A stretch of DNA of 21,812 bases. Source: a virus. The notes under the pieces are model-generated. The model was not told the DNA's origin. It searched no databases and saw only the letters and a program-made list of their open reading frames with translations. A program made the translations under genes and the position numbers. Below, piece by piece: positions 8,339 to 21,812 of this stretch. Every line of letters begins with the position of its first letter. Positions within the stretch are counted from its first letter, which is position 1. The DNA is taken from IMG/VR virus record IMGVR_UViG_3300045918_000035, positions 1-21,812 of that record. One strand, given 5' to 3'.

Positions 8339-8346
8339 TATTTATG
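8339..8346 (-). promoter_or_regulatory. T4-type late promoter-like octamer (CATAAATA) before gp8
   Basis: CATAAATA on the minus strand differs by one base from the T4 late consensus TATAAATA. It overlaps the stop codon of the upstream 561-aa gene and leaves 27 bases before the gp8 ATG, close to the 25 bases seen before the DUF4815 gene. This could give gp8 and downstream genes a promoter independent of the inserted block. It rests on motif and spacing only. Confidence 0.4.
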
Positions 8347-10027
8347 CTACATACGTTTCGGTGTCACATACATAAATCTTAGTTGAGATATAATTTGGAT
8401 TAAATGTGTTGATGATATTTCTTGTAGGTGATAAAGACGCGATATCTTTAATCTTAATATTAGCAACTTCAACAGATCCAGTCGATCCAATATTAGGAGA
8501 ACCAAACACATTAGTATTTCCGTATGAAGGATATATCTTAGCAGTAGTTGTTGTAGCGGTTGTTATAAACTTTATTCTGACAAACCAAAACTGTCCTACA
8601 TATGATACATCAAGAACTGTGTTGGCAGATGAGGTATATGTTCCAGTGTCTGGATTAAAATTTATATAATTTGTGCCTAGAGTAAATTGAACAAATGTTG
8701 AAGGATTAGATTGTCTATTAACTAATAACTCTAATGTTATCGTATGTCCAACAACAGTTGTGAAATCTAATGACACTCCAGATATTGCATCATTAACCGT
8801 ATCAGATAATTTACTTAATGAAGGGAAAGCATCTGGACCGATTCCATAATATCTTGTCACCTGACAATTGTTAATAATGCTCCATTTAGACATATCAGAT
8901 GGAGCTATAGGTGGACTGATATAATCGTCATATGATGTGAATACGAATTGAGAGGAGGCTGATATGTTCCTATCAAGTACCATTGATATTGGCATACTTT
9001 TAAATCTAAACTTATTCATATCACCAAACAAATCTGATATCTCAGACCATTCTGGACCAGACTGATAAACATCACAGAAACTTAAAATGTATAGGATAGT
9101 GAATACGCTTGATGTAAACGGATCAATCTCAATTAGATTAGCATCGACAAATACGTTATTAACAACATCACCAAATAATGCGAATCCAGCAGGATGAACT
9201 GTATCTCGAACAATCTGCTCATATGATGAGAGAGGAATGCCAGACTTAATGGTATAAGAATAATCTTGATATCTTTGGTTATCGGCTATGACAGAATTAG
9301 CATTGTTAAGTAAACCAACATTATTTTTAAGGCTGAATGCTGAATATCCATTACCACCAATAACAGTAGTACCATTTGCTCTGTTAAGAGATTGAATAGT
9401 AGCTTTACATCCTGATTGAAGTCCTATAACTTGATCTCCTACAGCAAATGATCCAGATAATTGATGTAGAATATCAAATCCATCTTCTGTCTCAAATGTG
9501 TTGCCTAATTCATCTGTCAAATAAAACTCATCGGTTAGAGCATCTAGTTTAAGAATATTACGATCATAATCAAATCCAAGAACAGTGGCAGATACTCCTA
9601 CTTCTGCTGTCTTTGAGTCCTGAATTAATGTGTTACCATCTTCAGTTAATACGATACCCAATGAATATGATGTGGGAGATGTCGTAGTACTAACATAATC
9701 TTTAGGAGTAGTTCCGGAATCTAATTGCGCTCCCCATGCATAAAATGAAGATGATACTGTAGTAGCGGATTCAATAGTTGGAAGTACATCAGTGTGAAGT
9801 GCTATGAAGGTAAATGTTAATCTGACCCAAGATGAAGATGGTATAAAAGATTGTGGTGGATATCCAGCAATGTAAATATACATGAGTTGCTGAGTAGTTC
9901 CATCAGATTTAACATAAATTGAAAAGGTATAAGTTCCACCAATAGCCAATGTGGGAACAACCTGAGTTATATCGTTCGCATTTAATATGTAATCTGTTGG
10001 GACATAAAGCGGTGCGATATAACCCAT
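8342..10027 (-). CDS. C-terminal part of a split gp7-position baseplate protein
   Basis: This 561-residue protein begins abruptly inside a lectin-like beta-sandwich. Residues about 12-115 carry DYILNANDITQVVPTLAIGG, TYTFSIYVKSDG, SSSWVRLTFTF and YAWGAQLDSG..PKDYVST, which are the later strands of a fold whose opening strands are at the end of the 1443-aa gene upstream. Residues about 235-285 hold RYQDYSYTIKSG followed by VHPAGFALFGDVV, the end-region signature of the long baseplate protein that in related phages is one polypeptide. A second complete lectin-like domain spans about 370-545 (MSKWSIINNCQV ... GQFWFVRIKFITT). The ATG has a good ribosome site (AGAGGA, 6-base spacer) inside the end of the 107-aa gene, so this half is probably translated separately. 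Gene order between gp6 and gp8 gives the gp7 inference; I cannot test sequence homology to T4 gp7. Confidence 0.75.
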   Translation of the reverse strand: MGYIAPLYVPTDYILNANDITQVVPTLAIGGTYTFSIYVKSDGTTQQLMYIYIAGYPPQSFIPSSSWVRLTFTFIALHTDVLPTIESATTVSSSFYAWGAQLDSGTTPKDYVSTTTSPTSYSLGIVLTEDGNTLIQDSKTAEVGVSATVLGFDYDRNILKLDALTDEFYLTDELGNTFETEDGFDILHQLSGSFAVGDQVIGLQSGCKATIQSLNRANGTTVIGGNGYSAFSLKNNVGLLNNANSVIADNQRYQDYSYTIKSGIPLSSYEQIVRDTVHPAGFALFGDVVNNVFVDANLIEIDPFTSSVFTILYILSFCDVYQSGPEWSEISDLFGDMNKFRFKSMPISMVLDRNISASSQFVFTSYDDYISPPIAPSDMSKWSIINNCQVTRYYGIGPDAFPSLSKLSDTVNDAISGVSLDFTTVVGHTITLELLVNRQSNPSTFVQFTLGTNYINFNPDTGTYTSSANTVLDVSYVGQFWFVRIKFITTATTTTAKIYPSYGNTNVFGSPNIGSTGSVEVANIKIKDIASLSPTRNIINTFNPNYISTKIYVCDTETYVA

Positions 10028-10030
10028 ATA

Positions 10031-10354
10031 TTATCCTCTTGCTGCTTTAATAATTTTGTAGTTATTTAGTGTGATATATGCATAAAATAACGTTAACATA
10101 CCAAACACAGATAAACCAAATTGAGTATCAGCATATCCCATAAACGTTACATACGATATGGCTATTGATACACCCATCTTAAATACAAATAGTCCTGGAA
10201 TAAATCCTATAAGATCCATAAGTTTTTTAACAATAGGATTAGCTTCTGTGCCATATCCAGATGTGATACCTGTCTTAGTTGTCCAGAAGTCAAACAGTTG
10301 AAGTGAGACTATGATGATACATTCTATAAATGCTAATGTGTGCATAATTACCAT
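10031..10354 (-). CDS. Small multi-pass membrane protein, DUF5658-like
   Basis: This protein of up to 107 residues has about four hydrophobic segments: roughly residues 5-22 (LAFIECIIIVSLQLF), 47-58 (LIGFIPGLFVF), 59-73 (KMGVSIAISYVTFMG) and 78-97 (FGLSVFGMLTLFYAYITL). Between the first two is FDFWTTKTGITSGYGTEANP, which resembles the D..TT..G....EANP motif of DUF5658-type small membrane proteins. The ATG at 10354 overlaps the TGGTAA end of the 72-aa gene. A second ATG at 10345 has AGGA at a better distance and may be the true start. It sits in the block that interrupts the baseplate gene and has the low G+C of the flanking genes. No lysis or exclusion function can be read from it; an inner-membrane location is inferred from hydrophobicity. 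Confidence 0.65.
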   Translation of the reverse strand: MVIMHTLAFIECIIIVSLQLFDFWTTKTGITSGYGTEANPIVKKLMDLIGFIPGLFVFKMGVSIAISYVTFMGYADTQFGLSVFGMLTLFYAYITLNNYKIIKAARG

Positions 10355-10566
10355 CCTGTTAATGTTAGGTACTGGTCAGATTTTGATGAGTCGTTTATGT
10401 CAGCAATAAACTGATCTTTCGTTTCAAGTGTGTACGTTCCACGATGAGGAATTGAAGATGTGACCTCTCCGTCTCTGAGAATTTCGTTATGCCATTTAAC
10501 CTCAAGCGTATTTGTTGCTTGTATATGGTTAATCGAGTGCAGTGTTTTTTGTTCGGTGAGTGACAT
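10348..10566 (-). CDS. Small phage protein of tail-region type, function unknown
   Basis: This 72-residue protein opens MSLTEQKTLHSINHIQATNT and has the layout of a common class of small phage proteins encoded beside tail fibres: a beta-strand of the form LEVKWHNEILRDGEVTSSIP, a basic RGTYTLETKDQF segment and a C-terminal LTLTGW. It has a good ribosome site (AAGGA, five-base spacer) and directly follows the relic fibre tip. Its end overlaps the start of the membrane-protein gene. In many tailed phages such proteins lie just after the fibre gene, which fits its position behind the old tip. It may therefore be the original neighbour of that lost fibre. I know of no established activity. Confidence 0.65.
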   Translation of the reverse strand: MSLTEQKTLHSINHIQATNTLEVKWHNEILRDGEVTSSIPHRGTYTLETKDQFIADINDSSKSDQYLTLTGW

Positions 10567-10574
10567 GATCTTCC

Positions 10575-10815
10575 TTATACAGTGTATGTTATTGAGAAGT
10601 AAATATTCGTTGATGCTGCAAGTGCATTATTTGCGGTAACCCCAACCGTAAATGGTAAATTAGATGAAATAACACCCCTGCCGAAACTGCTGTAGACGTT
10701 GAACCAGTAACTGTCCACGTTACCGTCACCTTCTACCGATCTTCGTATATGTCCCACTTGATGAGAACGTACCAACAACAGTCAATCCAGAACCCTGATT
10801 AGGAGTCCATGTGCC
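10575..10815 (-). pseudogene. Relic of a phage fibre C-terminal tip domain, two frameshifts
   Basis: Reading from 10815, one frame gives GTWTPNQGSGLTVVGTFSSS then GTYTKIGR, a classic opening of a phage fibre tip domain, before a stop. A second frame then continues it as KVTVTWTVTGSTSTAVSAG (10732 to about 10677), and a third frame completes it as GVISSNLPFTVGVTANNALA to the TAA at 10575. The joined text reads as one domain, with shifts near 10731 and 10677 that each look like loss of one base (AGAAAGG to AGAAGG, and one G of a G-run). No start codon suits the first part; a 67-codon open frame from a TTG at 10778 is an accident of the shifts. The relic begins directly after the propeller cassette, as if it had been the former C-terminus of that fibre. 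Sequencing error in short runs is the main alternative. Confidence 0.75.
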
Positions 10816-11782
10816 CTCCTTAAGTTAAAACCGACACCGATGCGCTTCCATTGTTCGCAACGTAAATTCTGTCATTGGTCGGACAGTAAGCTATTCCATA
10901 AGGATTAGCCCCAACGGTAATTGTTGCTGTAACCACTCCCGTACTTGGAATGATTACCGATACCGATGCGCTTCCATAGTTAGAAACATAAATTCTGTCA
11001 TTGGTCGGACAGTAAGCTATTCCAGCAGGAGTAGCCCCAACGGTAATTGTTGCTATAACTACTCCCGTACTTGCGTTGATTACCGATACCGTTGTGCCTC
11101 CAGTGTTCGCAACGTAAATTCTGTCATTGGTCGGACAGTAAGCTATTCCATAAGGAGTAGCCCCAACAGTAATTGTTGCTGTAACTACTCCTGTACTTGG
11201 AATGATTACCGATACCGATGTGCCTACAGTGTTCGTAACGTAAATTCTGTCATTGGTCGGACAGTAAGCTATTCCAACAGGACTAGTCCCAACGGTAATT
11301 GTTGCTGTAACTACTCCTGTACTTGGAATGATTACCGATACCGTTGTGCCTCCATAGTTCGCAACGTAAATTCTGTCGTTGGTCGGACAGTAAGCTATTC
11401 CATAAGGACTAGTCCCAACCGTGATTGTTGCTGTAACTACTCCTGTACTTGGAATGATTACCGATACCGTTGTGCCTCCAGTGTTCGCAACGTAAATTCT
11501 GTCATTGGTCGGACAGTAAGCTATTCCATAAGGACTAGTCCCAACCGTGATTGTTGCTGTAACTACTCCTGTACTTGGAATGATTACCGATACCGTTGTG
11601 CTTCCAGTGTTAGAAACGTAAATTCTGTCATTGGTAGGACAGTAGGCTATTCCTTGAGGACTAGTCCCAACGGTGATTGTTGCTGTGTTAGCTACCACTC
11701 CGCAATAATCTAGGAGTCCGAAGTACCCTTTAATTGTTCTAACTGGTGCTGAACCTGCGAAGATTGAATTTGATGATGTAAT
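10816..11782 (-). repeat. Propeller tip cassette, copy 1 (967 bp, seven 126-bp blades)
   Basis: This is a direct repeat of 18904-19870 with exactly the same length. It comprises a linker (11687-11782, a single mismatch to copy 2: GCA versus TCA within FAGSAPVRT), seven tandem 126-bp blade units (about 10823-11686), the stop codon and the following AAGGAG. Upstream of 11782 the two copies diverge abruptly into unrelated stems. Downstream of AAGGAG they also diverge, here into the relic fibre tip. Blade units in phase carry the fixed core IAYCPTNDRIYV. Confidence 0.9.
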
Positions 11783-12148
11783 AGCACCACCTACTGTCAA
11801 CGAACTCGCACTCGTAGCGCCAAGCGTGGCTGCAACACCGCCAGTTATTGCACCGCTGAATACGGTTGCTCCTAGATTAGAAGTAGTTGCTGATATGTTA
11901 CCAGTAACACCGATACCAGTAGACATGATATCAAGTATTTTAGTACCACTAACTGCAAACGCATTGTGATCTGCTGCTATCTGATATAAACCAGTTGTTG
12001 TATCTGCTCCTAATATAATAGAAGGCAGACTAACACTACCGGCAGCAAATCCGATGGAATTAGCTGCTGATATTTTAAGTTTATCGACTCCATTAAACTG
12101 TAATGATCCGAAAGTATCGCTTGCATCTGTTTTTAATGATATAGGCAT
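10820..12148 (-). CDS. Tail fibre with seven-bladed YVTN-type propeller tip (copy in baseplate gene)
   Basis: This is a 442-residue protein. Residues 1-125 are a phage fibre stem: PSIILGADTTTGLYQIAADH and FAVSGTKILDI are a familiar N-terminal motif of virion fibres, followed by ATLGATSASSLTVGG-type beta repeats. A linker at about 123-152 (ITSSNSIFAGSAPVRTIKGY ... GLLDYCGVV) leads to seven 42-residue repeats of the form TITVGTSPYGIAYCPTNDRI, YVANTGGTTVSVIIPSTGVV. They match the YVTN beta-propeller repeat, and seven units would close a propeller. Each blade has a Cys in IAYCPTND. The chain stops four residues after the last SVSV core begins (SVSVLT). The start has only a weak ribosome site and lies 13 bases after the 1443-aa gene. 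Binding a surface receptor is inferred from architecture; no ligand can be named. Confidence 0.85.
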   Translation of the reverse strand: MPISLKTDASDTFGSLQFNGVDKLKISAANSIGFAAGSVSLPSIILGADTTTGLYQIAADHNAFAVSGTKILDIMSTGIGVTGNISATTSNLGATVFSGAITGGVAATLGATSASSLTVGGAITSSNSIFAGSAPVRTIKGYFGLLDYCGVVANTATITVGTSPQGIAYCPTNDRIYVSNTGSTTVSVIIPSTGVVTATITVGTSPYGIAYCPTNDRIYVANTGGTTVSVIIPSTGVVTATITVGTSPYGIAYCPTNDRIYVANYGGTTVSVIIPSTGVVTATITVGTSPVGIAYCPTNDRIYVTNTVGTSVSVIIPSTGVVTATITVGATPYGIAYCPTNDRIYVANTGGTTVSVINASTGVVIATITVGATPAGIAYCPTNDRIYVSNYGSASVSVIIPSTGVVTATITVGANPYGIAYCPTNDRIYVANNGSASVSVLT

Positions 12149-12161
12149 ATGCTATCCAAAA

Positions 12162-15100
12162 TTAAAATGTTAATTTATTAGCTGTAGTAGTTCCATCAGG
12201 AGCTAATGCAACATTAGTTAGGACTGTTACTCCGTTCTTAGTCCACTGGCTAAAATCTTGTGAGTATAAAATTATATTAGAATTCTCATGAAGAACATAA
12301 TTAGTAGATAATGCTCCATCTGCCGATCTTAGAACTCTAACTTCTTCACCAACTTTAAATGCTGCATTATCAGATAATGTTGCGATAAGAGGGAAGATTG
12401 GAATTGGATGTTCATCGTACATTGCGCCATTATTATTAAATGACACTTTTTTAACAGCACCTATCTTACTTCCATAGCAAGAGAATTTAGTACCTGTTGC
12501 TGATAATGTTCCACTGGTATATTTATCAGCTAATGATAGGATAGGAGAAGTTTTATATCCAGCACCTTGATCTAATATTCTTATTGCTGAAACTGCACCA
12601 TATCCACTCGTATCTGATATTTTAACGGTAGGAGTTGATGTTATACCAGAACCAACATTTGATATAGCACACGAGTCGATTGATCCTAATTTTTCTAATA
12701 TTGACATAAAGACTGCATTTGATCCATCACCTAGAATAACGATATCTGCATAGGTATAGCCTGATCCTTTATTTGTTATGTTAAGACTAGATATGAATCT
12801 TTCTGGAACTGCTATCAAATTAGCACCTGATCCAACCGTTGCAGTTAGAGTAGGATTGGTATAACCTGATCCACCATTAACTATAGTGAGAGATATTATT
12901 TTATCTCCATCTAATATTGGAGCAATGATTGCACCTGTACCTGTTGGATCTGATATGAATATTTTAGTCGCATTGTTATATCCGGACCCACCAGCTAATA
13001 CTTGAGCAGATGTAATGCCTGTTTCAACTATAGGAGTAACAGTTGCGTTTAATCCATCACCAACGATGATAGCAGATGTTCCATACTTATAATTTGCTCC
13101 ACCTGATATGATAGTGACATCAACTATCTTACCCAGATAAACGATAGGAATTAAATTAGCACCCGATCCTGTGCCGGACACGCTAATGGTAGATAACATC
13201 GTATAACCAGATCCACCATCAACTATCGTAATCTTTTGAATTTCACCTAATGAATTTAATGTTGGAATAAATGTTGCACCTGATCCTATCGTAGCTGATA
13301 TGACTAATGGACTAGCTTCAGATTGAGCAAGATATCCATATCCCCAACTTGTTCTTGAATATCCTAGTAGTCCACCATTACCTGATATTGTCAATGAAAG
13401 TGTAGGAGTAGTTCCTGTATTAATTGTGATATTAGCTAAGTCTGATTGAATATAACCTGATCCACCATCAGATGAAACTGATTTGATAACACCATTAACG
13501 ATAGTTGGAATTAGATTAGCAGCAACCGCTCCACCTTGAGTAGTAGGAGCGGATATGGTAGTTGATGAAACATAATTTGATCCACCATTGACAACCGAAA
13601 CTGATTTAATAACACCATTAGCAACAGATGGAATATTATATGAAGCACCTGTACCGTTACCTACTATGGTGACATTGTTAATTGTTTGATATCCAAATCC
13701 ACCATCATAAATTACGATCTGATCGACTGCACCAGATACGATTGATGCTATGCCGACAAATCCTGTACCACCACCAATGGTAGCATATGCGTATGTGTAT
13801 CCTGATCCTCCTGATCCCTTATGTAATGTTGTGATTACACCATCAAATAAGTTTGGATATAAGATTGCACCTGAACCGAATCCATTCACTACTGGAACAG
13901 TATGGTCGGTATCGTGATAAGATACTCCTGGATCATCAATATTAGACGACAACAATCTAAAATCTAAATTAGCTAATGCTCCTCTTCCATTTGATACGTT
14001 ATTAATTAATGGAGTATTAAAGCATGGTGGAATAGTTTTATAATTTCCACGATTAGAGTATGAGAATGCTGTAATTGATCCAGATAAATTACTTGCATTT
14101 CTGATTAGAGGAACAGCATTAAATCCTGAACCTAATCTTTCTTTAATCTCAACTGATGCTGTCGTATAACCTGACCCAGTATTATTAATCGTATAACCTG
14201 TTATGGCACCAGATGTCATAATTAATGAGACATTAGCACCTGTACCGTTACCTGTTATAACTGCTATAGGATCGAGATAATTTACGCCTCCGGTATTTAT
14301 CGTATATGAGGTGATTGCATTACTTACGATATTAGGAGTAATAGTTGCACCATATCCATTTGCAATAATCTTTATCTTGCCATTGGCTGGAGTTGGATAT
14401 GAGGTAACATCAATTGATGTTATTGCTCCTTTGTCAATTATTGGAATTGCATTAAATCCAGATAAGATAGCTAATGATGAATCAATCACAGCTAATTTTG
14501 TATAGGGTGGATAATCTGTGCCTGATCCATTATATGGAATATGGTTACCTACATTAGGTATGACAGTTGTACCTGAAACAGTATTACCGTTATCATACGT
14601 GAAGTATGAAGTGCTGGACGTATATTCAGATGGCATTTGATTCCAAGAGTTGGAAACGTTTTCGCATTGAGGATGCCAGATATAAAATCCTATTGAAGTT
14701 GATCCTACATATGATTCGGCATTACCTGTTGTTACTAGGTCGAGATAAAAAGATTTTAATGAACCGATGGCAGTAGCAGGTAAGACGATTCTAGTCCATG
14801 TGTTACTAGTAGGAGTGAACATAAGGCCAGAGGTTGATACATTTGTGTTAATTGATAAACCGATATTCCTTGATTGAGGATAATCTATTGGTTTAACATA
14901 AACGGTCATAACAGCAGTAGAAGTTGTTGCTGGAATATTAACTAAACATTTGATATTATGAAGTCCAGTGGCAGATGTTTCCATAAATCTAAATGCGGTA
15001 TTGGTTCCATCTGGTGCAGCATATCCAGATGTAATTGTTCCATTTGTTGCGGTCCATGAAGCATCTAATAAATTTTCTGGAACAGGAATTATATTTTGAA

Positions 15101-16493
15101 CTTTTCTAGGAGTTGATTCAATACTTAATCCAACCATAGCATTTGTCGAATTAACTGATGTCACTGTAATATTAGCAGGAGGAGAACCAGTTACTGTTGC
15201 TCCAGTTGATATCATGCTTATATGTTTTCTCGGTGGAATCTCATAGATATCTAATATATCACCCACGACATAATCTACTCCACCATTTGACAGAGATAGG
15301 ATATTTAATTCTGATGTAAGGGTGATGTTACCGTTGATGCCATCAATATTAGAAACCTCGGCTGAGAAGTTTATACCATCACCAGTAGGGAATAATTTAT
15401 CACCTACAGAATATCCGTAACCTTTTTTTAGTACATTAACTGTTTCGATTGATCCTGCTGATGTATCTGAAACATATCCATCTACAAGTTCACCTGAGCC
15501 GCCGATGAAAGTTACTTTATCACCTGCCGTATAAAGTGATCCACCAGATGTAATATCTACGTCTACTATAGCTGCTGATACTTGACCAGTAACGAAATCT
15601 GATTTGGTATAAAGGATTGGTTCTAATGCTGGAGCGAACACATATAATTCTGCTCCTTGAATAAAAGATCCAGTATGTGAACTGAGAACTAAGTTAATCT
15701 TAGTAGAATTTGATTCTTGCACTCGTGAAACTAATCCAGATATTACGCCTCTAAAATTTGATCCAATTTGTTTTATTATCAAATTATCGTATGGACGACC
15801 TTCTTCTGTTATTACGCTGAAGGAGATATCATTATTAGTAAAAACGGAGTTAGTTAAATAATTTGTTATTCTATAAAAACTTCGATCAATATTATTTTTT
15901 AGGACTTCAACATTTTCACCATGAATGAATTTGCCTGTTATTGACTTCTCATCTAATTTAAGCCAATTTACTTCTGTTCCGCCATATGGAATCGTTACAC
16001 ATGAAATGATCGTAGCTGATGAATTATTACTTGGTTGAGTTATGGTTGAACCTTCAACATTAGTCCAAGGAACATTTGATTCGATTGCAAGTGAAGCTTC
16101 TCTTGAATACTCATTAGCTGATGGTCTGAATAATTTATCAGAGTTCCACACAATTTCAGAATCTTCTCCATAAATCGCATTCATAATGAATTTGATTGAT
16201 TGAGGATTGCCTTTAGATTTCAAAAATGCCGCAATATGTTTTGTTACTAATGTTCTATCAGCCTTAGAATACGATGGTATTGAATCTAAAAGAGATTTTG
16301 TTAGATGATATCTAAATTCTGGATTAGTTAGGTCGATATCACGATATTTAAGTATATTTTGAATAAATTCTGCTGGTTGGCCATTGGCAGAGAGCCAGTT
16401 GTAATAATGAACTAGGAGAGATTTAAATCTGTCATTATCTCGGACGGATTCTGGTAATTGATTTGCTACGATATCTGAATATACTGGGAGCAT
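12162..16493 (-). CDS. N-terminal part of a split gp7-position baseplate protein, GGSGY-repeat rich
   Basis: This is a 1443-residue protein. Residues 1-140 are helical (LPESVRDNDRFKSLLVHYYN, ILKYRDIDL, FLKSKGNPQSIKFIMNAIYG) and match the opening of the long baseplate protein encoded between gp6 and gp8 in T4-like aquatic phages. Residues about 300-1330 contain many GGSGYT/GGxxY turns, each followed by G.GA and a short beta strand, suggesting a long repetitive beta structure. A complete lectin-like beta-sandwich interrupts this at about 465-640 (LLDASWTATNGT, APDGTNTAFRF, WTRIVLP, FYIWHPQCE). The final 40 residues (NIILYSQDFSQWTKNGV ... APDGTTTANKLTF) are only the first strands of another such domain; the remainder starts the 561-aa gene. 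Its ATG overlaps the gp6 stop (TAATG). The baseplate role is inferred from synteny and family. Confidence 0.8.
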   Translation of the reverse strand: MLPVYSDIVANQLPESVRDNDRFKSLLVHYYNWLSANGQPAEFIQNILKYRDIDLTNPEFRYHLTKSLLDSIPSYSKADRTLVTKHIAAFLKSKGNPQSIKFIMNAIYGEDSEIVWNSDKLFRPSANEYSREASLAIESNVPWTNVEGSTITQPSNNSSATIISCVTIPYGGTEVNWLKLDEKSITGKFIHGENVEVLKNNIDRSFYRITNYLTNSVFTNNDISFSVITEEGRPYDNLIIKQIGSNFRGVISGLVSRVQESNSTKINLVLSSHTGSFIQGAELYVFAPALEPILYTKSDFVTGQVSAAIVDVDITSGGSLYTAGDKVTFIGGSGELVDGYVSDTSAGSIETVNVLKKGYGYSVGDKLFPTGDGINFSAEVSNIDGINGNITLTSELNILSLSNGGVDYVVGDILDIYEIPPRKHISMISTGATVTGSPPANITVTSVNSTNAMVGLSIESTPRKVQNIIPVPENLLDASWTATNGTITSGYAAPDGTNTAFRFMETSATGLHNIKCLVNIPATTSTAVMTVYVKPIDYPQSRNIGLSINTNVSTSGLMFTPTSNTWTRIVLPATAIGSLKSFYLDLVTTGNAESYVGSTSIGFYIWHPQCENVSNSWNQMPSEYTSSTSYFTYDNGNTVSGTTVIPNVGNHIPYNGSGTDYPPYTKLAVIDSSLAILSGFNAIPIIDKGAITSIDVTSYPTPANGKIKIIANGYGATITPNIVSNAITSYTINTGGVNYLDPIAVITGNGTGANVSLIMTSGAITGYTINNTGSGYTTASVEIKERLGSGFNAVPLIRNASNLSGSITAFSYSNRGNYKTIPPCFNTPLINNVSNGRGALANLDFRLLSSNIDDPGVSYHDTDHTVPVVNGFGSGAILYPNLFDGVITTLHKGSGGSGYTYAYATIGGGTGFVGIASIVSGAVDQIVIYDGGFGYQTINNVTIVGNGTGASYNIPSVANGVIKSVSVVNGGSNYVSSTTISAPTTQGGAVAANLIPTIVNGVIKSVSSDGGSGYIQSDLANITINTGTTPTLSLTISGNGGLLGYSRTSWGYGYLAQSEASPLVISATIGSGATFIPTLNSLGEIQKITIVDGGSGYTMLSTISVSGTGSGANLIPIVYLGKIVDVTIISGGANYKYGTSAIIVGDGLNATVTPIVETGITSAQVLAGGSGYNNATKIFISDPTGTGAIIAPILDGDKIISLTIVNGGSGYTNPTLTATVGSGANLIAVPERFISSLNITNKGSGYTYADIVILGDGSNAVFMSILEKLGSIDSCAISNVGSGITSTPTVKISDTSGYGAVSAIRILDQGAGYKTSPILSLADKYTSGTLSATGTKFSCYGSKIGAVKKVSFNNNGAMYDEHPIPIFPLIATLSDNAAFKVGEEVRVLRSADGALSTNYVLHENSNIILYSQDFSQWTKNGVTVLTNVALAPDGTTTANKLTF

Positions 16494-18250
16494 TATTTAG
16501 TTTCCTTAACAACATCAATATTAATGTTCTCCTGTAAAGTAGTTAAGAGAACATTGTTACTTGAGTATATATCTAGCGTAGAAGGAGTAGCAAATATTTT
16601 AAATGATGCAGAATCAAGTGATGACATTGTAACTCCACTAATCACGATATCACCTGTATCATAATTAACTGTTCCTACATTTGATATATAAATGTTTTCT
16701 TGTCCACCAATATTGTAGTAGATATTAACTATTCCACCAGAATCTTTAAGATAAAGTTTATTAGGTGAAACGCTATCATAAAAGAAATTACTAATTAGTG
16801 ATCCTGAAATCAAAGCATTGATAAAAGAAAATACGAAATTATTATTAGCATATGACTTAACAGGAAGATATTTACTAACCTTCAAATAAGTTTCATTACC
16901 AATTATAGAAACATCAGATGAATCAATTTGATTAACCAAAGATGAGTATCGTAGTACGCCCTTAAACTTTTTACCAATCGTATCGAAGTATGCTGTAATA
17001 GCGGCACGAACATTTGCCTCAAGTACATAAACAGACGATGTTAATGCGGAAGGATCGTATTTAACATCAGCATACAATTCAACATTTATGTAAGACGGAT
17101 CAGCAAATTCTACTGTAATATTGCCAACACTTTTAGTAGCCAGATATGATGATATCAAAACCTTATCTGATGGTTTAAGTACATCTCCTATCATAGGAAT
17201 AGCACATAACATGATCTTACCAAATCTAGGAGGAATATTAGATGCACCGTCCCATGATAATATATCTTTAACCGATGAAAAATTCTCTTTAGCTAATGCT
17301 GCATAATCGTATGCTGTTACTGCTCTATTTTGTGAACCAAAAACGTTTGTTGCATTCATCTTAATTGATTCTGGAGTTTCGATATCTAATCCACCATATG
17401 AAACAGAAGCAGCTTTAACTGAAAATGTTGTATTGGCATCGGTATCAGGAACTGTTGATACTATACTAAATGTTAATGCTCCATTTGCTATAGCACCTGA
17501 CGTGACAACATAGGTTAATCTTATTTGAGTTTGATCTGTTGGAGTCTTACCTAATACATTATCACCAAAATATATTTCGTAACCAGAGAATCCTTCTTGC
17601 AACATAAAGACATTTGATATTGAAGATACTGCAAGAAAATCTTTTGGATTATAATATTGAACCCAAGTTGCTGCTCCTTCTCTAACTTCAACCGTTAATG
17701 TGGTTGTGTCGATATCAACATTTGGTATTTTAACTGTTCCCACTGTCCGATCATATATAACAATATTTTGAACTAGGATGCCTTCATATGCTGTAATGAT
17801 TCCTTTATAAAGTGATCCTCCCTTTAATTTATCTGCATTGATTGTTGTGAATGTATAAGTTTGATCTGATATTGAAGTAGTAAATCTTGTACCACGTGGA
17901 ATATTAATCTCAGATGGTGCCGTTCCATTAACAGGAACAGGAACATTACCAACAATCATATTAAGATAGACCTTAGATGATCTTCTACTTCTTGGAGTAT
18001 ATCCTAATTCTTTTGCCCTAGATACGATAGATGATCTTTTAGTAGCAGTATCTAAGAACATTTCATTCCCTAAATAATTTGCAGCTAGTGCATCGTAATG
18101 TGAATTATATGCTAAGATATTCAGCAGTTGAGTTATACCAGCACCTTCAAAATTATAATCTGTAAATTCTGACTGATCTTTTAGAAAGTTTTTAAGTGAA
18201 TCTTTTACATCTTGAAAATCTAATGAACCAATGCGGATCTGATTATTCAT
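16493..18250 (-). CDS. gp6: Baseplate wedge protein gp6, baseplate J-like
   Basis: This 585-residue protein has a clear gp6 opening: RIGSLDFQDVKDSLKNFLKD, then YNFEGAGITQLLNILAYNSH, YDALAANYLGNEMFLDTATK and RSSIVSRAKELGYTPRSRRS. A beta-rich middle includes a short PRGTRFTTS strand and EGFSGYEIYFGDNVLGKTP near 220-240. NRAVTAYDYAALAKENFSSV near 305 and the LRYSSLVNQIDSSDVSI segment near 440 match the baseplate J-like region. In T4, gp6 dimers join neighbouring wedges into the baseplate ring, together with gp25, gp53 and gp7. The start overlaps the gp25 stop as ATGA, and the stop overlaps the next start as TAATG, so translation is probably coupled through all three genes. Length is close to that of T4 gp6. 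Confidence 0.93.
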   Translation of the reverse strand: MNNQIRIGSLDFQDVKDSLKNFLKDQSEFTDYNFEGAGITQLLNILAYNSHYDALAANYLGNEMFLDTATKRSSIVSRAKELGYTPRSRRSSKVYLNMIVGNVPVPVNGTAPSEINIPRGTRFTTSISDQTYTFTTINADKLKGGSLYKGIITAYEGILVQNIVIYDRTVGTVKIPNVDIDTTTLTVEVREGAATWVQYYNPKDFLAVSSISNVFMLQEGFSGYEIYFGDNVLGKTPTDQTQIRLTYVVTSGAIANGALTFSIVSTVPDTDANTTFSVKAASVSYGGLDIETPESIKMNATNVFGSQNRAVTAYDYAALAKENFSSVKDILSWDGASNIPPRFGKIMLCAIPMIGDVLKPSDKVLISSYLATKSVGNITVEFADPSYINVELYADVKYDPSALTSSVYVLEANVRAAITAYFDTIGKKFKGVLRYSSLVNQIDSSDVSIIGNETYLKVSKYLPVKSYANNNFVFSFINALISGSLISNFFYDSVSPNKLYLKDSGGIVNIYYNIGGQENIYISNVGTVNYDTGDIVISGVTMSSLDSASFKIFATPSTLDIYSSNNVLLTTLQENINIDVVKETK

Positions 18251-18627
18251 CTTACTCTTTCCATTGAAAAGTTTAATGTCTGTTTATCTGGATTACCAAT
18301 GACATGAAAAAGTATTCCTATATCAATTCCATTTCCTGTTACATCTTCTCCTACATATAAATCTTCTATGACAACCCTTGGCTCATACTCAAATAAAGCA
18401 TACATAATCTTCTTCTTTATAACAGCTATAGTAGATTGAGTTATTAGCTCAAATAACATGTGTTTAAAGTTGCCACCAAAGTTGGGATCAAATGGAGAAT
18501 CAAATGGAGATGCCATTAAAATATATTTCATCGATGCCTTAACAGCATCAACATCTAACTTCTTTGCTATATCAAAGGTAGCAGGATGTGACTGAAGATT
18601 TAATGATATATCTGAATATGTTACCAT
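18247..18627 (-). CDS. gp25: Baseplate wedge/sheath initiator gp25
   Basis: This 126-residue member of the GPW/gp25 family carries DVDAVKASMKYILMASPFDS, then PNFGGNFKHMLFE. The conserved EPR core is at residues 82-84 (YEPRVVIEDLYV), and the protein ends with NFSMERVR. In T4-like phages and related contractile systems gp25 sits in the inner baseplate and starts sheath assembly, and the EPR motif is part of its core contact. The ATG at 18627 has no Shine-Dalgarno sequence of its own; it overlaps the stop of a 7-codon leader that does have one (ATGGTAA). A start at the later Met at residue 33 would lose conserved sequence, so the assigned start is preferred. It is followed by gp6 with an ATGA overlap. 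Confidence 0.93.
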   Translation of the reverse strand: MVTYSDISLNLQSHPATFDIAKKLDVDAVKASMKYILMASPFDSPFDPNFGGNFKHMLFELITQSTIAVIKKKIMYALFEYEPRVVIEDLYVGEDVTGNGIDIGILFHVIGNPDKQTLNFSMERVR

Positions 18628-18644
18628 GAAGTGTCTAATCTCAT
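18621..18644 (-). promoter_or_regulatory. Seven-codon leader ORF overlapping the gp25 start
   Basis: An ATG at 18644 is preceded by GGAAGGA with a seven-base spacer and encodes MRLDTSW. Its TAA overlaps the gp25 start as ATGGTAA. The strong ribosome site belongs to this leader and not to gp25, so gp25 may depend on termination and re-initiation. Alternatively, loss of one base may have uncoupled an earlier in-frame gp25 start. Confidence 0.45.
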
Positions 18645-18645
18645 A

Positions 18646-18696
18646 TTATTTTCCTTCCAATAATGTGTCCAGATGTTCTAGTATGTAGAGTTTCAT
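18646..18696 (-). CDS. Possible 16-residue mini-gene between companion gene and gp25
   Basis: An ATG overlapping the TGA of the 66-aa gene (ATGA) opens MKLYILEHLDTLLEGK, which stops at 18646-18648 just before the gp25 leader ATG (TAATATG). The peptide could form a short amphipathic helix. Its ribosome site is weak, and such a short frame can easily be chance. The continuous chain of overlaps from the companion gene to gp25 is the main reason to list it. Confidence 0.3.
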   Translation of the reverse strand: MKLYILEHLDTLLEGK

Positions 18697-18893
18697 GCTA
18701 ATCCGTTAATGTTAGAGACATTGACAGGAGACACCCATCCATCCACCGGAACTATCGCACCATCCACAAATAAATACTTCCCCTGACTAAATGTGTTCAT
18801 AAAATCTTCAGGAATATCGCCATCATATTCAACCCCATATATCTGCCTTCCAGCAGCTAATATATTGCCTACCTCATCTGCGTTAATTATCAT
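18693..18893 (-). CDS. Companion protein of propeller fibre, copy A (66 aa)
   Basis: This small acidic protein (MIINADEVGNILAAGRQIYG, then YDGDIPEDFMNTF, GKYLFVDGAIVPV and GWVSPVNV) is unlike anything I can name. It follows the 578-aa propeller fibre by 14 bases and uses the AAGGAG carried at the end of the propeller cassette, with a spacer of about nine bases. A second copy (21469-21678) follows the propeller gene at the right edge, differing at residues 21, 49, 51, 55 and 62 and after 64. The fixed pairing suggests it serves the propeller fibre, perhaps as assembly factor, cap or small partner, but that is inference from linkage. No membrane segment or known catalytic motif is visible. Confidence 0.75.
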   Translation of the reverse strand: MIINADEVGNILAAGRQIYGVEYDGDIPEDFMNTFSQGKYLFVDGAIVPVDGWVSPVNVSNINGLA

Positions 18894-18903
18894 CTTTAAA
18901 GTT

Positions 18904-19870
18904 CTCCTTAAGTTAAAACCGATACCGATGTGCTTCCATTGTTAGAAACGTAAATTCTGTCATTGGTAGGACAGTAAGCTATTCCATAAGGACTAGTTCC
19001 AACGGTGATTGTTGCTGTAACTACTCCCGTACTTGGGATGATTACCGACACCGATGTGCTTCCAGTGTTCGTAACGTAAATTCTGTCATTGGTCGGACAG
19101 TAAGCTATTCCAATAGGACCAGTTCCAGCCGTGATTGTTGCTGTAACTACTCCTGTACTTGGGATGATTACCGACACCGATGAGCTTCCATAGTTCGCAA
19201 CGTAAATTCTGTCATTGGTCGGACAGTAGGCTATTCCATAAGGACTAGTTCCAACGGTGATTGTTGCTGTAACTACTCCTGTACTTGGAATGATTACCGA
19301 CACCGATGTGCTTCCATTGTTCGCAACGTAAATTCTGTCATTGGTCGGACAGTAGGCTATTCCAATAGGACTAGTTCCAACGGTGATTGTTGCTGTAACT
19401 ACTCCCGTACTTGGGATGATTACCGACACCGATGAGCTTCCATAGTTCGCAACGTAAATTCTGTCATTGGTAGGACAGTAAGCTATTTCAACAGGACTAG
19501 TTCCAACGGTGATTGTTGCTGTAACTACTCCTGTACTTGGAATGATTACCGACACCGATGCGCTTCCATTGTTCGCAACGTAAATTCTGTCATTGGTCGG
19601 ACAGTAGGCTATTCCAATAGGACCAGTTCCAACGGTGATTGTTGCTGTAACTACTCCCGTACTTGGGATGATTACCGACACCGATGTGCTTCCATAGTTC
19701 GCAACGTAAATTCTGTCATTGGTAGGACAGTAAGCTATTCCTTGAGGATTAGTCCCAACGGTGATTGTTGCTGTGTTAGCTACCACTCCGCAATAATCTA
19801 GGAGTCCGAAGTACCCTTTAATTGTTCTAACTGGTGCTGATCCTGCGAAGATTGAATTTGATGATGTAAT
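18904..19870 (-). repeat. Propeller tip cassette, copy 2 (967 bp, seven 126-bp blades)
   Basis: This segment is the same length as copy 1 at 10816-11782 and in the same orientation, 8,088 bp away. The linker at 19775-19870 matches copy 1 except for one base. The blade array spans about 18911-19774. Here the cassette is joined to a different stem, and its terminal AAGGAG serves the 66-aa companion gene. Blades differ from copy 1 mainly in the two loop segments, with a scatter of silent changes. Confidence 0.9.
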
Positions 19871-20644
19871 CGAACCTGTTACTGCGAGACCACTACTATA
19901 CACCGACATGACAGGAGTTGTGAATACGTTACCGCCTGCTACTGTAGACGGCGTAAATCCTAGCCCATTTGATAAGTAACCTGAGTCTATCTGCCAATTT
20001 TTAAACGAGGAATTCCAAGCATTCAGGAATAGCTTAACTCCGTAATTTGCATTTCCAGTGGCATTCCCTAGAGTTGTGGTAACACCGTTTAATGTAGCGT
20101 TACCAGTAGCCACAATAGTCCCAAAGCTCGCATTCTGGTTGCCAGTGATGGGCACTGAGAGGTTTAGAGCTGTGGAGGATAGGGTTGCTGCCCCATTGAC
20201 AAGATTGACTGTACCACCAGTTTTCATTACATACGCTGTACTCCATCCCGAACCAATGTTCGCCACCTCAAACCCTGAACGCCATCCACTAACGCCAGCA
20301 TAGTAAGCGATACCAGCGGTTAGCCCACTTGTACCCACATTAACATCGGACGCTAACCACGTATTATCGGTTGGATACCTACCAGAAAACAAAGCACCTG
20401 TAGTTCTCTCATTTGTCGTAACACTCTTGGTAATAAGTGCTGCCGATGTACCCGAATCGGATAGTGTCGCACTCCCAGTCGCTCCAATAGTAGTAAACGC
20501 CCCTGTACTTGGCGTGGTGTTACCGATCGGGGTGGAGTTGATGGATGTGGCTGATAGAGTGGTAAACTTACCAGTAGAAGGAGTAACTGATCCGACTGGT
20601 ATAGAATCTAATAATCCAATGGAACCATCAAGTGTTATTGTCAT
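18908..20644 (-). CDS. Tail fibre with seven-bladed YVTN-type propeller tip (copy before gp25)
   Basis: This is a 578-residue protein. Residues 1-60 carry two stem repeats (SINSTPIGNTTPSTGAFTTI type). Residues about 65-250 are a beta-rich shaft with WLASDVNVGTSGLTAGIAYY, GWRSGFEVANIGSGWSTAYV and NYGVKLFLNAWNSSFKNWQI, whose fold I do not recognise. Residues 259-288 are the shared linker, and about 289-578 are seven 42-residue propeller blades ending SVSVLT. Blade 3 has PVEIAYCPT where all others have a Gly before IAYC. The shaft has 47% G+C in one hand-counted line, above the core baseplate genes, hinting at acquisition. A ribosome site (AAGGA) precedes the ATG. The stem differs completely from the 442-aa fibre while the tip is nearly the same, which suggests module exchange. 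A receptor-binding role is inferred. Confidence 0.85.
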   Translation of the reverse strand: MTITLDGSIGLLDSIPVGSVTPSTGKFTTLSATSINSTPIGNTTPSTGAFTTIGATGSATLSDSGTSAALITKSVTTNERTTGALFSGRYPTDNTWLASDVNVGTSGLTAGIAYYAGVSGWRSGFEVANIGSGWSTAYVMKTGGTVNLVNGAATLSSTALNLSVPITGNQNASFGTIVATGNATLNGVTTTLGNATGNANYGVKLFLNAWNSSFKNWQIDSGYLSNGLGFTPSTVAGGNVFTTPVMSVYSSGLAVTGSITSSNSIFAGSAPVRTIKGYFGLLDYCGVVANTATITVGTNPQGIAYCPTNDRIYVANYGSTSVSVIIPSTGVVTATITVGTGPIGIAYCPTNDRIYVANNGSASVSVIIPSTGVVTATITVGTSPVEIAYCPTNDRIYVANYGSSSVSVIIPSTGVVTATITVGTSPIGIAYCPTNDRIYVANNGSTSVSVIIPSTGVVTATITVGTSPYGIAYCPTNDRIYVANYGSSSVSVIIPSTGVVTATITAGTGPIGIAYCPTNDRIYVTNTGSTSVSVIIPSTGVVTATITVGTSPYGIAYCPTNDRIYVSNNGSTSVSVLT

Positions 20645-20655
20645 TTAAAAATTCC

Positions 20656-21450
20656 TTAAATTATTTTCCAAGCTGATCCAGCTGGAACAGTAACTACTAT
20701 ACCAGTTGATATCATGACTGGACCAGCACTAAAAGCATTATTGCCACTAGCAATCGTATAATTGCTATTTATGATTGAATTACTTTCCATCACACCAGAT
20801 GTAATATTTAAAGTAGTAAATCTACCTGTACTAGCTGTAGTTGCGCCTATTGGAGTAGAATTTATATTACTAGCATTTAAGTTAGTAAATGATCCATTAG
20901 CAGGAGTAGTTGCACCTATAATCGTATTATTAATATTTGATGCCGTTAAAGAAGTAAATGCTCCTGTACTAGGATTAGTTACACCTATTGGAGTATTAGT
21001 AATACCTGTTGCTGTAAGATTACCATTAATTGTTCCTGATGTTGCTACTAAAGAAGTAAATGCTCCCGATGCTGTAGTAGTAGCACCGATGGGAGTATTA
21101 TTTAATGAGGTAGCTGATGTTGCTCCTAGTGTCGTTGTACTAGAAGATGATAATGTAGTAAATGCTCCCGATGCTGTAGTAGTAGCACCGATAGGAGTAT
21201 TATTTAATGAGGTAGCTGAAAGATTACCTCCTATCGTTACACCTAATGTGGTTGATATGGTAGTAAATGATCCAGAGCTACCTGATATAGGAGTATTAGT
21301 GATAGCAGTAGCAGATATTGATCCACCTATCGTACCACCACCTGATGTATTTAATCCTGATAATACACCACCGAAAAGAGAAGTGAGATTAGCATCCATC
21401 TCAGCCCATGTAAGTTCGGCTCCCTTAGCTGTTCTAGTTGTTATTGCCAT
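20656..21450 (-). CDS. Fibre stem protein with T-P-I-G repeats, no propeller
   Basis: This 264-residue protein starts MAITTRTAKGAELTWAEMDA (NLTSLF), a common virion-fibre N-terminus. It then has about seven irregular repeats of the form ITNTPIG.T..STGAFTSL, spaced roughly 20-35 residues, as in trimeric fibre shafts. It ends with IASGNNAFSAGPVMISTGIV and VTVPAGSAWKII, a small C-terminal domain I recognise from other phage structural proteins, so it appears complete and not truncated. The ribosome site AAAGGA lies five bases before the ATG. It lies between the two propeller-fibre units and shares the TPIG stem repeat with the start of the 578-aa fibre, 11 bases downstream. It may be a fibre connector or a minor fibre of its own. 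Confidence 0.8.
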   Translation of the reverse strand: MAITTRTAKGAELTWAEMDANLTSLFGGVLSGLNTSGGGTIGGSISATAITNTPISGSSGSFTTISTTLGVTIGGNLSATSLNNTPIGATTTASGAFTTLSSSSTTTLGATSATSLNNTPIGATTTASGAFTSLVATSGTINGNLTATGITNTPIGVTNPSTGAFTSLTASNINNTIIGATTPANGSFTNLNASNINSTPIGATTASTGRFTTLNITSGVMESNSIINSNYTIASGNNAFSAGPVMISTGIVVTVPAGSAWKII

Positions 21451-21468: not shown

Positions 21469-21678
21469 TTATTTAATTAAATTAAATCCGTTAACATTAG
21501 AGACATTGACAGGCGCCACCCATCCAGCTACCAGAACTATCGCACCATCCACAAATAAATACTTCCCTTGACTAAATGTGTTCATAAAATCTTCAGGAAT
21601 ATCGCCATCATATTCAGCCCCATATATCTGCCTTCCAGCAGCTAATATATTGCCTACCTCATCTGCGTTAATTATCAT
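21469..21678 (-). CDS. Companion protein of propeller fibre, copy B (69 aa)
   Basis: This protein is nearly identical to the 66-aa protein at 18693-18893, with V21A, P49L, D51A, S55A and I62V and a different tail (NGFNLIK in place of NGLA). It follows the right-edge propeller gene by 14 bases and uses the cassette-borne GGAGG as ribosome site. Here the next gene is the 264-aa stem instead of gp25, so the duplicated unit is propeller end plus companion, not the whole locus. The function is unknown; it is linked to the propeller fibre only by position. Confidence 0.75.
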   Translation of the reverse strand: MIINADEVGNILAAGRQIYGAEYDGDIPEDFMNTFSQGKYLFVDGAIVLVAGWVAPVNVSNVNGFNLIK

Positions 21679-21688
21679 CTTTAAATTC

Positions 21689-21812
21689 CTCCTTAAGTTA
21701 AAACCGACACCGATGTGCTTCCATTGTTAGAAACGTAAATTCTGTCATTGGTAGGACAGTAGGCTATTCCATAAGGATTAGCCCCAACGGTGATTGTTGC
21801 TGTAACTACTCC
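21689..21812 (-). repeat. Propeller tip cassette, copy 3 (3' end only)
   Basis: The last 124 bases match the 3' end of cassette copies 1 and 2, including the final blade, stop codon and following AAGGAG. The rest lies beyond the right edge. It is in the same orientation as the others. Confidence 0.85.
21693..21812 (-). CDS. C-terminal end of a third YVTN-type propeller fibre
   Basis: Thirty-nine residues are visible before the TAA at 21693-21695: the end of one blade (GVVTATITVGANPYG) and the last blade (IAYCPTNDRIYV then SNNGSTSVSVLT). The sequence is one blade of the same repeat found in the 442-aa and 578-aa fibres. The ANPYG loop matches blade 7 of the 442-aa protein, while the SNNGSTS loop matches blade 7 of the 578-aa protein, so this blade combines loop types of both. 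The stem and most of the propeller lie outside the window. The companion gene follows directly. Confidence 0.85.
   Translation of the reverse strand, partial: GVVTATITVGANPYGIAYCPTNDRIYVSNNGSTSVSVLT

Follow-up and report, generated by a model that had tools for sequence, protein, structure and literature searches.

Known propellers and fibre modules

Beta-propellers occur in several phage receptor-binding proteins, including phi11 Gp45 with five blades, PhiKZ gp131C with seven blades and PRD1 P2 (reviewed in PMC4901313). They resemble the fibre tip described here in that a propeller is part of a (here putative) host-recognition protein. PMC4901313 describes no near-identical YVTN blades, no sharing from fibre to fibre and no DUF2977-like gene for these proteins. 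Neither modular fibre tips nor propellers in receptor-binding proteins are new in themselves (PMC4901313); the blade signature and the distribution of the module set the present case apart. The tip shares its blade sequence, 42-residue period and fold with the YVTN family (TIGR02276; PDB 1l0q). It differs from that family in its C-terminal position on phage fibres, in blades that are 83–89% identical to each other and in variability on a single face.

Host-recognition modules with a small downstream assembly gene, the arrangement proposed here, have been described in Alteromonas phages (PMC10579305) and as gp24/gp25 of Pam3 (PMC9608196). Distantly related Alteromonas phages share fibre-plus-chaperone modules, and this exchange between unrelated phages also has its counterpart here (PMC10579305). 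Unlike the present module, the Alteromonas and Pam3 modules contain no propeller. The Pam3 chaperone has a trimerising helical domain (PMC9608196), whereas the gene family found here encodes proteins of 64–91 aa without detectable homology to solved chaperones.

In the HNWD NOD-like receptors of Podospora (het-d/het-e), near-identical blades undergo concerted evolution while a few positions on one face are hypervariable and diversifying (PMC12222747). These receptors share near-identical blades and variable interaction-face positions with the phage tip, a common working principle for which no homology is claimed; they are fungal immune proteins built from WD40 blades, in contrast to a phage tip built from YVTN blades. 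Propellers on collagen shafts, as in the related fibres of L087 and L103 (see below), are also present in the eBAP3 tail fibres of extracellular contractile injection systems (eCIS). Those are injection systems, and the available part of PMC12923769 describes neither module sharing nor blade homogenisation of the kind seen here.

The locus

The window analysed is the complete IMG/VR record IMGVR_UViG_3300045918_000035, 21,812 bp in length and classed as a linear fragment. All its long genes lie on the minus strand and form a T4-like baseplate and fibre cluster, as judged from the ORF list, Pfam and PHROGs. Besides a gp53-like protein, the cluster encodes wedge proteins of the gp25-like and gp6-like types and further wedge or structural proteins (Table 1). 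Identity of the gp6-like protein reaches no more than 35% with proteins of deposited phages and 52% with those of the IMG/VR contigs L006–L012, some of which, by their sample numbers, we take to be from groundwater. The phage is a large, tailed, T4-like phage known only from metagenomes, and the propeller caps no fewer than three of its fibres, on different stems.

Table 1. Features of the window, in order of position
Feature	Position	Strand	Remarks
gp53-like baseplate protein, rear part, 561 aa	8342..10027	-	38% identical to the rear of the single 1670-aa L008 protein
Insert of ~2.1 kb: fibre 1, possible old tip, 72-aa ORF, DUF5658 ORF	10028..12161	-	inside one gp53-like domain
Possible remnant of a different fibre tip, frameshifted (GTWTPNQGSGLTVVGTFSSSGTYTKIGR // VEGDGNVDSYWF...NLPFTVG...)	10575..10810	-	sequence reading only; directly behind copy 1
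Shared segment, copy 1: linker SNSIFAGSAPVRTIKGYFGLLDYCGVVA, then seven YVTN blades of 42 aa and the stop codon	10816..11782	-	C-terminus of 442-aa fibre (10820-12148)
Stem of fibre 1, 122 aa	11783..12148	-	not similar to stem 2
gp53-like baseplate protein, front part, 1443 aa	12162..16493	-	48% identical to the same L008 protein
gp6-like baseplate wedge protein	16493..18250	-	phrog_219, E 3e-130; context of a T4-like myophage
gp25-like baseplate wedge protein	18247..18627	-	PF04965, phrog_261
66-aa gene, DUF2977-like, candidate tip assembly/accessory protein	18693..18893	-	lies just behind copy 2
Shared segment, copy 2	18904..19870	-	C-terminus of 578-aa fibre (18908-20644)
Stem of fibre 2, 258 aa	19871..20644	-	93–97% nt identity to the L004 stem in blocks; stem 1 shares none
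264-aa fibre without propeller, NTPIGATTTASGAFTTL-type stem repeats, own C-terminus	20656..21450	-	
69-aa gene	21469..21678	-	lies just behind copy 3; product 91% identical to that of the 66-aa gene
Shared segment, copy 3: last blade, truncated by the contig end	21689..21812	-	94% identity to copy 1 (blastn within the record)

Fold of the tip

The tip is predicted to be a seven-bladed YVTN beta-propeller. TIGR02276 scores 203.8 bits for copy 1 and 215.6 bits for copy 2, against a cut-off of 27.85. An AlphaFold2 model of the tip in copy 2, computed from an alignment of window and locus proteins, has a pLDDT of 92.3 and shows a closed seven-bladed ring of 7 x 4 = 28 strands. The ring is sealed by the N-terminal strand. 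Its best PDB match is 1l0q, the YVTN propeller of an archaeal surface-layer protein. The Pfam Lactonase and YNCE models also match the propeller; the YncE equivalog NF052280, with 68.6 and 66.9 bits, falls far short of the required score of at least 400. The propeller forms the C-terminal end of the protein on a fibre stem within the tail gene cluster, an arrangement that is repeated in L087, L090 and L103–L107.

A segment shared by unrelated stems

Blastn within the record recovers the segment borders given in the preliminary description, together with a third match at 21689-21812. Copies 1 and 2, reported there as segments of equal length, are indeed both exactly 967 bp and align over 880/967 identical positions (91%) with zero indels, each encoding the linker SNSIFAGSAPVRTIKGYFGLLDYCGVVA, seven 42-residue YVTN blades and a stop codon. 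The nucleotide alignment suggested at that stage likewise bears out the third copy, whose end is 94% identical to copy 1. An assembly duplication is unlikely as the source of the copies because 9% of their sites differ and their flanks are not the same.

Borders that had been described as sharp at both ends are so in copy 1; at the 3′ end of copies 2 and 3 they are not. There, identity of ~95% continues through the downstream 66/69-aa gene, and the 3′ border is abrupt in copy 1 only, where just ~5 nt past the stop codon are common to the copies. The natural module in copies 2 and 3 is the propeller plus the small downstream gene. Because the homology of these copies runs through that gene, the trailing Shine-Dalgarno sequence is the ribosome site of the 66/69-aa gene itself, and the earlier proposal that the tip moved with its own downstream ribosome site is to be replaced by this larger unit.

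The stems of copies 1 and 2 show no similarity at the DNA or protein level. The same linker and propeller stand on a third, collagen-like type of stem in unrelated Magnetococcales prophages, in agreement with the idea of a modular tip common to unrelated stems. A probable front part of copy 3 comes from the IMG/VR contig L004/L086 (15.8 kb, handle G001), which ends inside the propeller of a fibre of 541+ aa. Its genes run in the same order as those upstream of gp25 in L008, and the window edge holds a propeller end; the contig and the window are for these reasons very probably adjacent fragments of a single phage type, each interrupted at the repeat. The stem on L004/L086, probably that of copy 3, shares blocks of 93–97% nucleotide identity with stem 2, so the stems are mosaic too. 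On the same contig (L086 1834-5202), three ORFs of 183–261 aa between a gp5-like gene and the fibre resemble phage ADP-ribosyltransferases by eye.

The small downstream gene

Relatives of the 66/69-aa gene directly follow a propeller in six other records (L090, L087, L094, L103, L104 and L106), one of them a Magnetococcales prophage. L094 was found by searching with the small gene itself. This 208-kb phage contig ends (positions 1-2014) in a fibre with ~11 repeats of another YVTN-like type, some blades being identical; the front of this fibre lies beyond the contig end, and a gene of the small family comes next after it. Copy 1 and the tips of L088, L089, L095–L097, L105 and L107–L109 lack the gene, which is for that reason not essential to the module. 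An HMM of the family hits one of 48 Magnetococcia genomes and one of 398 genomes sampled from the phylum, the same genome both times. A single-sequence scan with the 66-aa protein gave zero matches; relatives came only from alignment-based scans.

The window proteins score 18.6 and 18.0 bits with DUF2977 (PF11192), against a gathering threshold of 21. This profile matches four of five members of the small family at E<=5, the best at E 2e-5. Weak matches also extend to the tail-fibre and tail-fibre-assembly families phrog_300 and phrog_136 (the latter with E 0.093), and Lactobacillus phage proteins match only marginally. The family may possibly be part of a wider, generally fibre-associated one. 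The 66-aa protein is modelled with a pLDDT of 88 and one short helix, and has neither a fold match nor a sequence match in the PDB. It was considered as a Tfa or gp38-like chaperone and rejected as such: there is no Pfam tail-fibre-assembly match, no PDB match by fold or profile and no helical trimerisation domain. Its gene position and the known fibre-plus-chaperone modules (PMC10579305, PMC9608196) point to an assembly or tip-accessory role, in which it would probably help the tip to fold or assemble.

Distribution of the tip

A search of phages and metagenomes for the linker plus blades, also suggested earlier, yields relatives in metagenomes and prophages and none among 50,697 phage records (INPHARED), by DNA search or by tblastn. 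Eight of the same records match a YVTN consensus. MT836048.1 (L098) is rejected as a phage relative since its gene content is that of bacterial DNA: filed as a phage, it carries by eye genes for thymidine phosphorylase, cytochrome b561 and a multicopper oxidase, and is probably mislabelled. Proteins of a Roseobacter phage and of a Manatee Spring phage are also excluded, their propellers being of different kinds.

Among 84,980 bacterial and archaeal genomes there are three matches, all in metagenome-assembled genomes of Magnetococcales. They carry the whole tip, KGYFGLLDxxGV plus seven blades, at 53–61% identity; this linker is kept across the relatives with the whole tip. The tips cap collagen-like fibres that adjoin a major tail protein (phrog_807), in prophages of a different phage type. 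Three further Magnetococcales prophage tips are those of L095–L097, and the distribution hints at a link of the tip to Magnetococcales hosts. In IMG/VR, the linker and propeller of L090 stand on a fibre with a collagen-plus-beta stem. A wider alignment adds looser seven-bladed tips on collagen fibres (L103, L104 and L106) and on tandem short fibres (L105 and L107–L109). The tandem runs comprise two to three or more short fibre genes per contig, at least two of each run with a seven-bladed YVTN propeller (L105 3409-7507, L107 4521-8637, L108 163-2906, and L109). In L111 (2080-2874), propeller blades are fused to an apparently truncated ORF resembling a major tail protein.

The propeller had been thought uncommon as a phage fibre tip. 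It is rare in deposited phages, but recurs in uncultured ones (IMG/VR, BFVD). The BFVD fold library includes related propellers of uncultured phages, so this is not the only phage protein with the fold. A literature search found no description of recurring YVTN-propeller fibre tips in environmental phages.

Variation and recombination among blades

Blades within copies 1 and 2 are on average 83% and 89% identical, compared with 34–54% in the other tips compared, where the values come from an HMM-based count because anchor-based counting is unreliable for relatives. Variation was analysed over 18 blades, with two full copies and one record. Of the minority residues, 63 of 67 fall in 13 of the 42 blade positions, in the D-A loop (G-T/A-S/N/G/T-P-x-G) and the B-C loop (x-N-x-G-S/G-x-x). 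None of 100,000 permutations was as extreme. By propeller geometry the two loops share one face, and amino-acid variation is confined almost wholly to the loops of this face. Extra synonymous codon states are distributed differently, one at loop positions and 12 elsewhere.

Recombination between blades has also left its trace. All four gametes are present in 46 of 78 informative site pairs, and in 16 of 21 pairs at third positions. This is a sign of exchange between blades, although recurrent mutation may account for part of it. At two silent sites copies 1 and 2 are each nearly fixed for a different base, and identity within copies (90.8% and 93.5%) slightly exceeds that between copies (89.4%), pointing to partial concerted evolution. 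The preliminary description had missed this homogenisation of the blades, as well as the small partner gene and the split of the baseplate gene described below.

Origin and role of the module

We consider it reasonably probable that the tip is a receptor-binding module of T4-like tail fibres that passes from fibre to fibre and whose binding face is renewed by the shuffling of blades. A predicted seven-bladed YVTN propeller is joined by the conserved linker to presumably trimeric stems, often accompanied by the product of the small gene, a probable aid to folding or assembly. Recombination puts the module on different stems within one phage, as borders and copies show, and carries it between unrelated phages, as the Magnetococcales prophage tips show. 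The four-gamete test shows that near-identical blades also recombine with each other and between copies, and as the variation lies in the loops of one face, this reshuffling alters that face and keeps the scaffold. The variable face may bind a host surface structure, and selection may favour its diversity. One-faced variability is new evidence for receptor binding by the propeller, a role suggested by sequence; that YVTN propellers can also be enzymes or structural platforms counts against it. A propeller serving as a structural platform or as a carbohydrate-active or lactonase-like enzyme domain, instead of as a receptor-binding face, is nevertheless unlikely. The phi11 receptor-binding protein does have a platform formed by a propeller of five blades, with a tower after it (PMC4901313), and Lactonase and YNCE are the matching Pfam models, but here the propeller ends the protein with no domain after it, the YncE equivalog cut-off is missed by a wide margin, and the variable positions lie on one face of an invariant scaffold, unlike a conserved active site.

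The similarity of the tips might also reflect plain descent, fibre genes having been duplicated whole, their stems diverging or being replaced later and their tips undergoing neutral concerted evolution. Such a family expansion would fit the near-identical blocks in stem 2 and the L004 stem of probable copy 3, the close similarity of the small genes behind copies 2 and 3, and the tandem propeller fibre genes of L105 and L107–L109. It is unlikely, however: copy 1 has an unrelated stem, lacks the small gene, lies ~7 kb away inside another gene and begins and ends its identity abruptly. The linker and propeller on unrelated stems in other phages also speak against it, and neutral homogenisation leaves the gathering of amino-acid changes on one face unexplained. 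That the variable positions were made by the targeted mutagenesis of a diversity-generating retroelement is very unlikely. Several variable codons fit an AAT-type template (ACT/TAT/AAT; AGT/ACT/AAT/GGT), yet other adenine-rich codons of these blades show little or no change (AAC at position 20, AGA at 15, ATA at 7); many of the silent changes are C/T or T/G, the variation is not adenine-specific, and the 37.6 kb known of this incomplete genome contain no reverse transcriptase (RVT_1). There is equally little chance that an assembler mis-joined the repeats. The window record and G001/L086 both break inside the propeller and the split gp53 gene is unusual, but the full copies, with seven blades each and distinct flanks, differ at 87 of 967 sites, and gene order across L086 and the window follows L008.

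If the tip is an exchanged receptor-binding module, blade shuffling might further act as a diversification system, in which near-identical blades present in many copies over several fibre genes are recombined into new face combinations and new host specificities. This extension is tentative and we regard it as doubtful; if true, it would be a recombination-based counterpart to diversity-generating retroelements and a parallel to the fungal HNWD immune receptors. The results define a class of YVTN-propeller fibre tips that recurs in environmental phages together with a small partner gene, and offer a testable model of a phage renewing its binding surface through recombination among repeats. The combination of the linker KGYFGLLD, the blades and a gene of 64–91 aa provides a search handle for host-recognition modules in uncultured phages.

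A fibre gene inside a baseplate gene

The gp53-like protein is a single 1670-aa ORF in L008 and two ORFs in the window, separated by the insert that carries copy 1. Joined across the gap, the two parts align as one domain with L013 (E 8.5e-8), so the insert sits inside a domain. An RNA family or intron as the cause of the split is rejected for want of an Rfam match, and no target-site duplication of at least 9 nt is present at the insert borders. The stretch directly behind copy 1 (10575..10810) has no match in PHROGs, phage records or related loci; from its reading frames it may be conjectured to be an old fibre tip. The domain that the insert splits in this gene (the gene spanning window 8342-16493) resembles a carbohydrate-binding module, and a second domain of the same kind, which L008 lacks, occupies residues 461–657 of the 1443-aa ORF. 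The insert also contains a membrane-type ORF of the DUF5658 family at window positions 10031-10354 (PF18902, E 5.6e-9).
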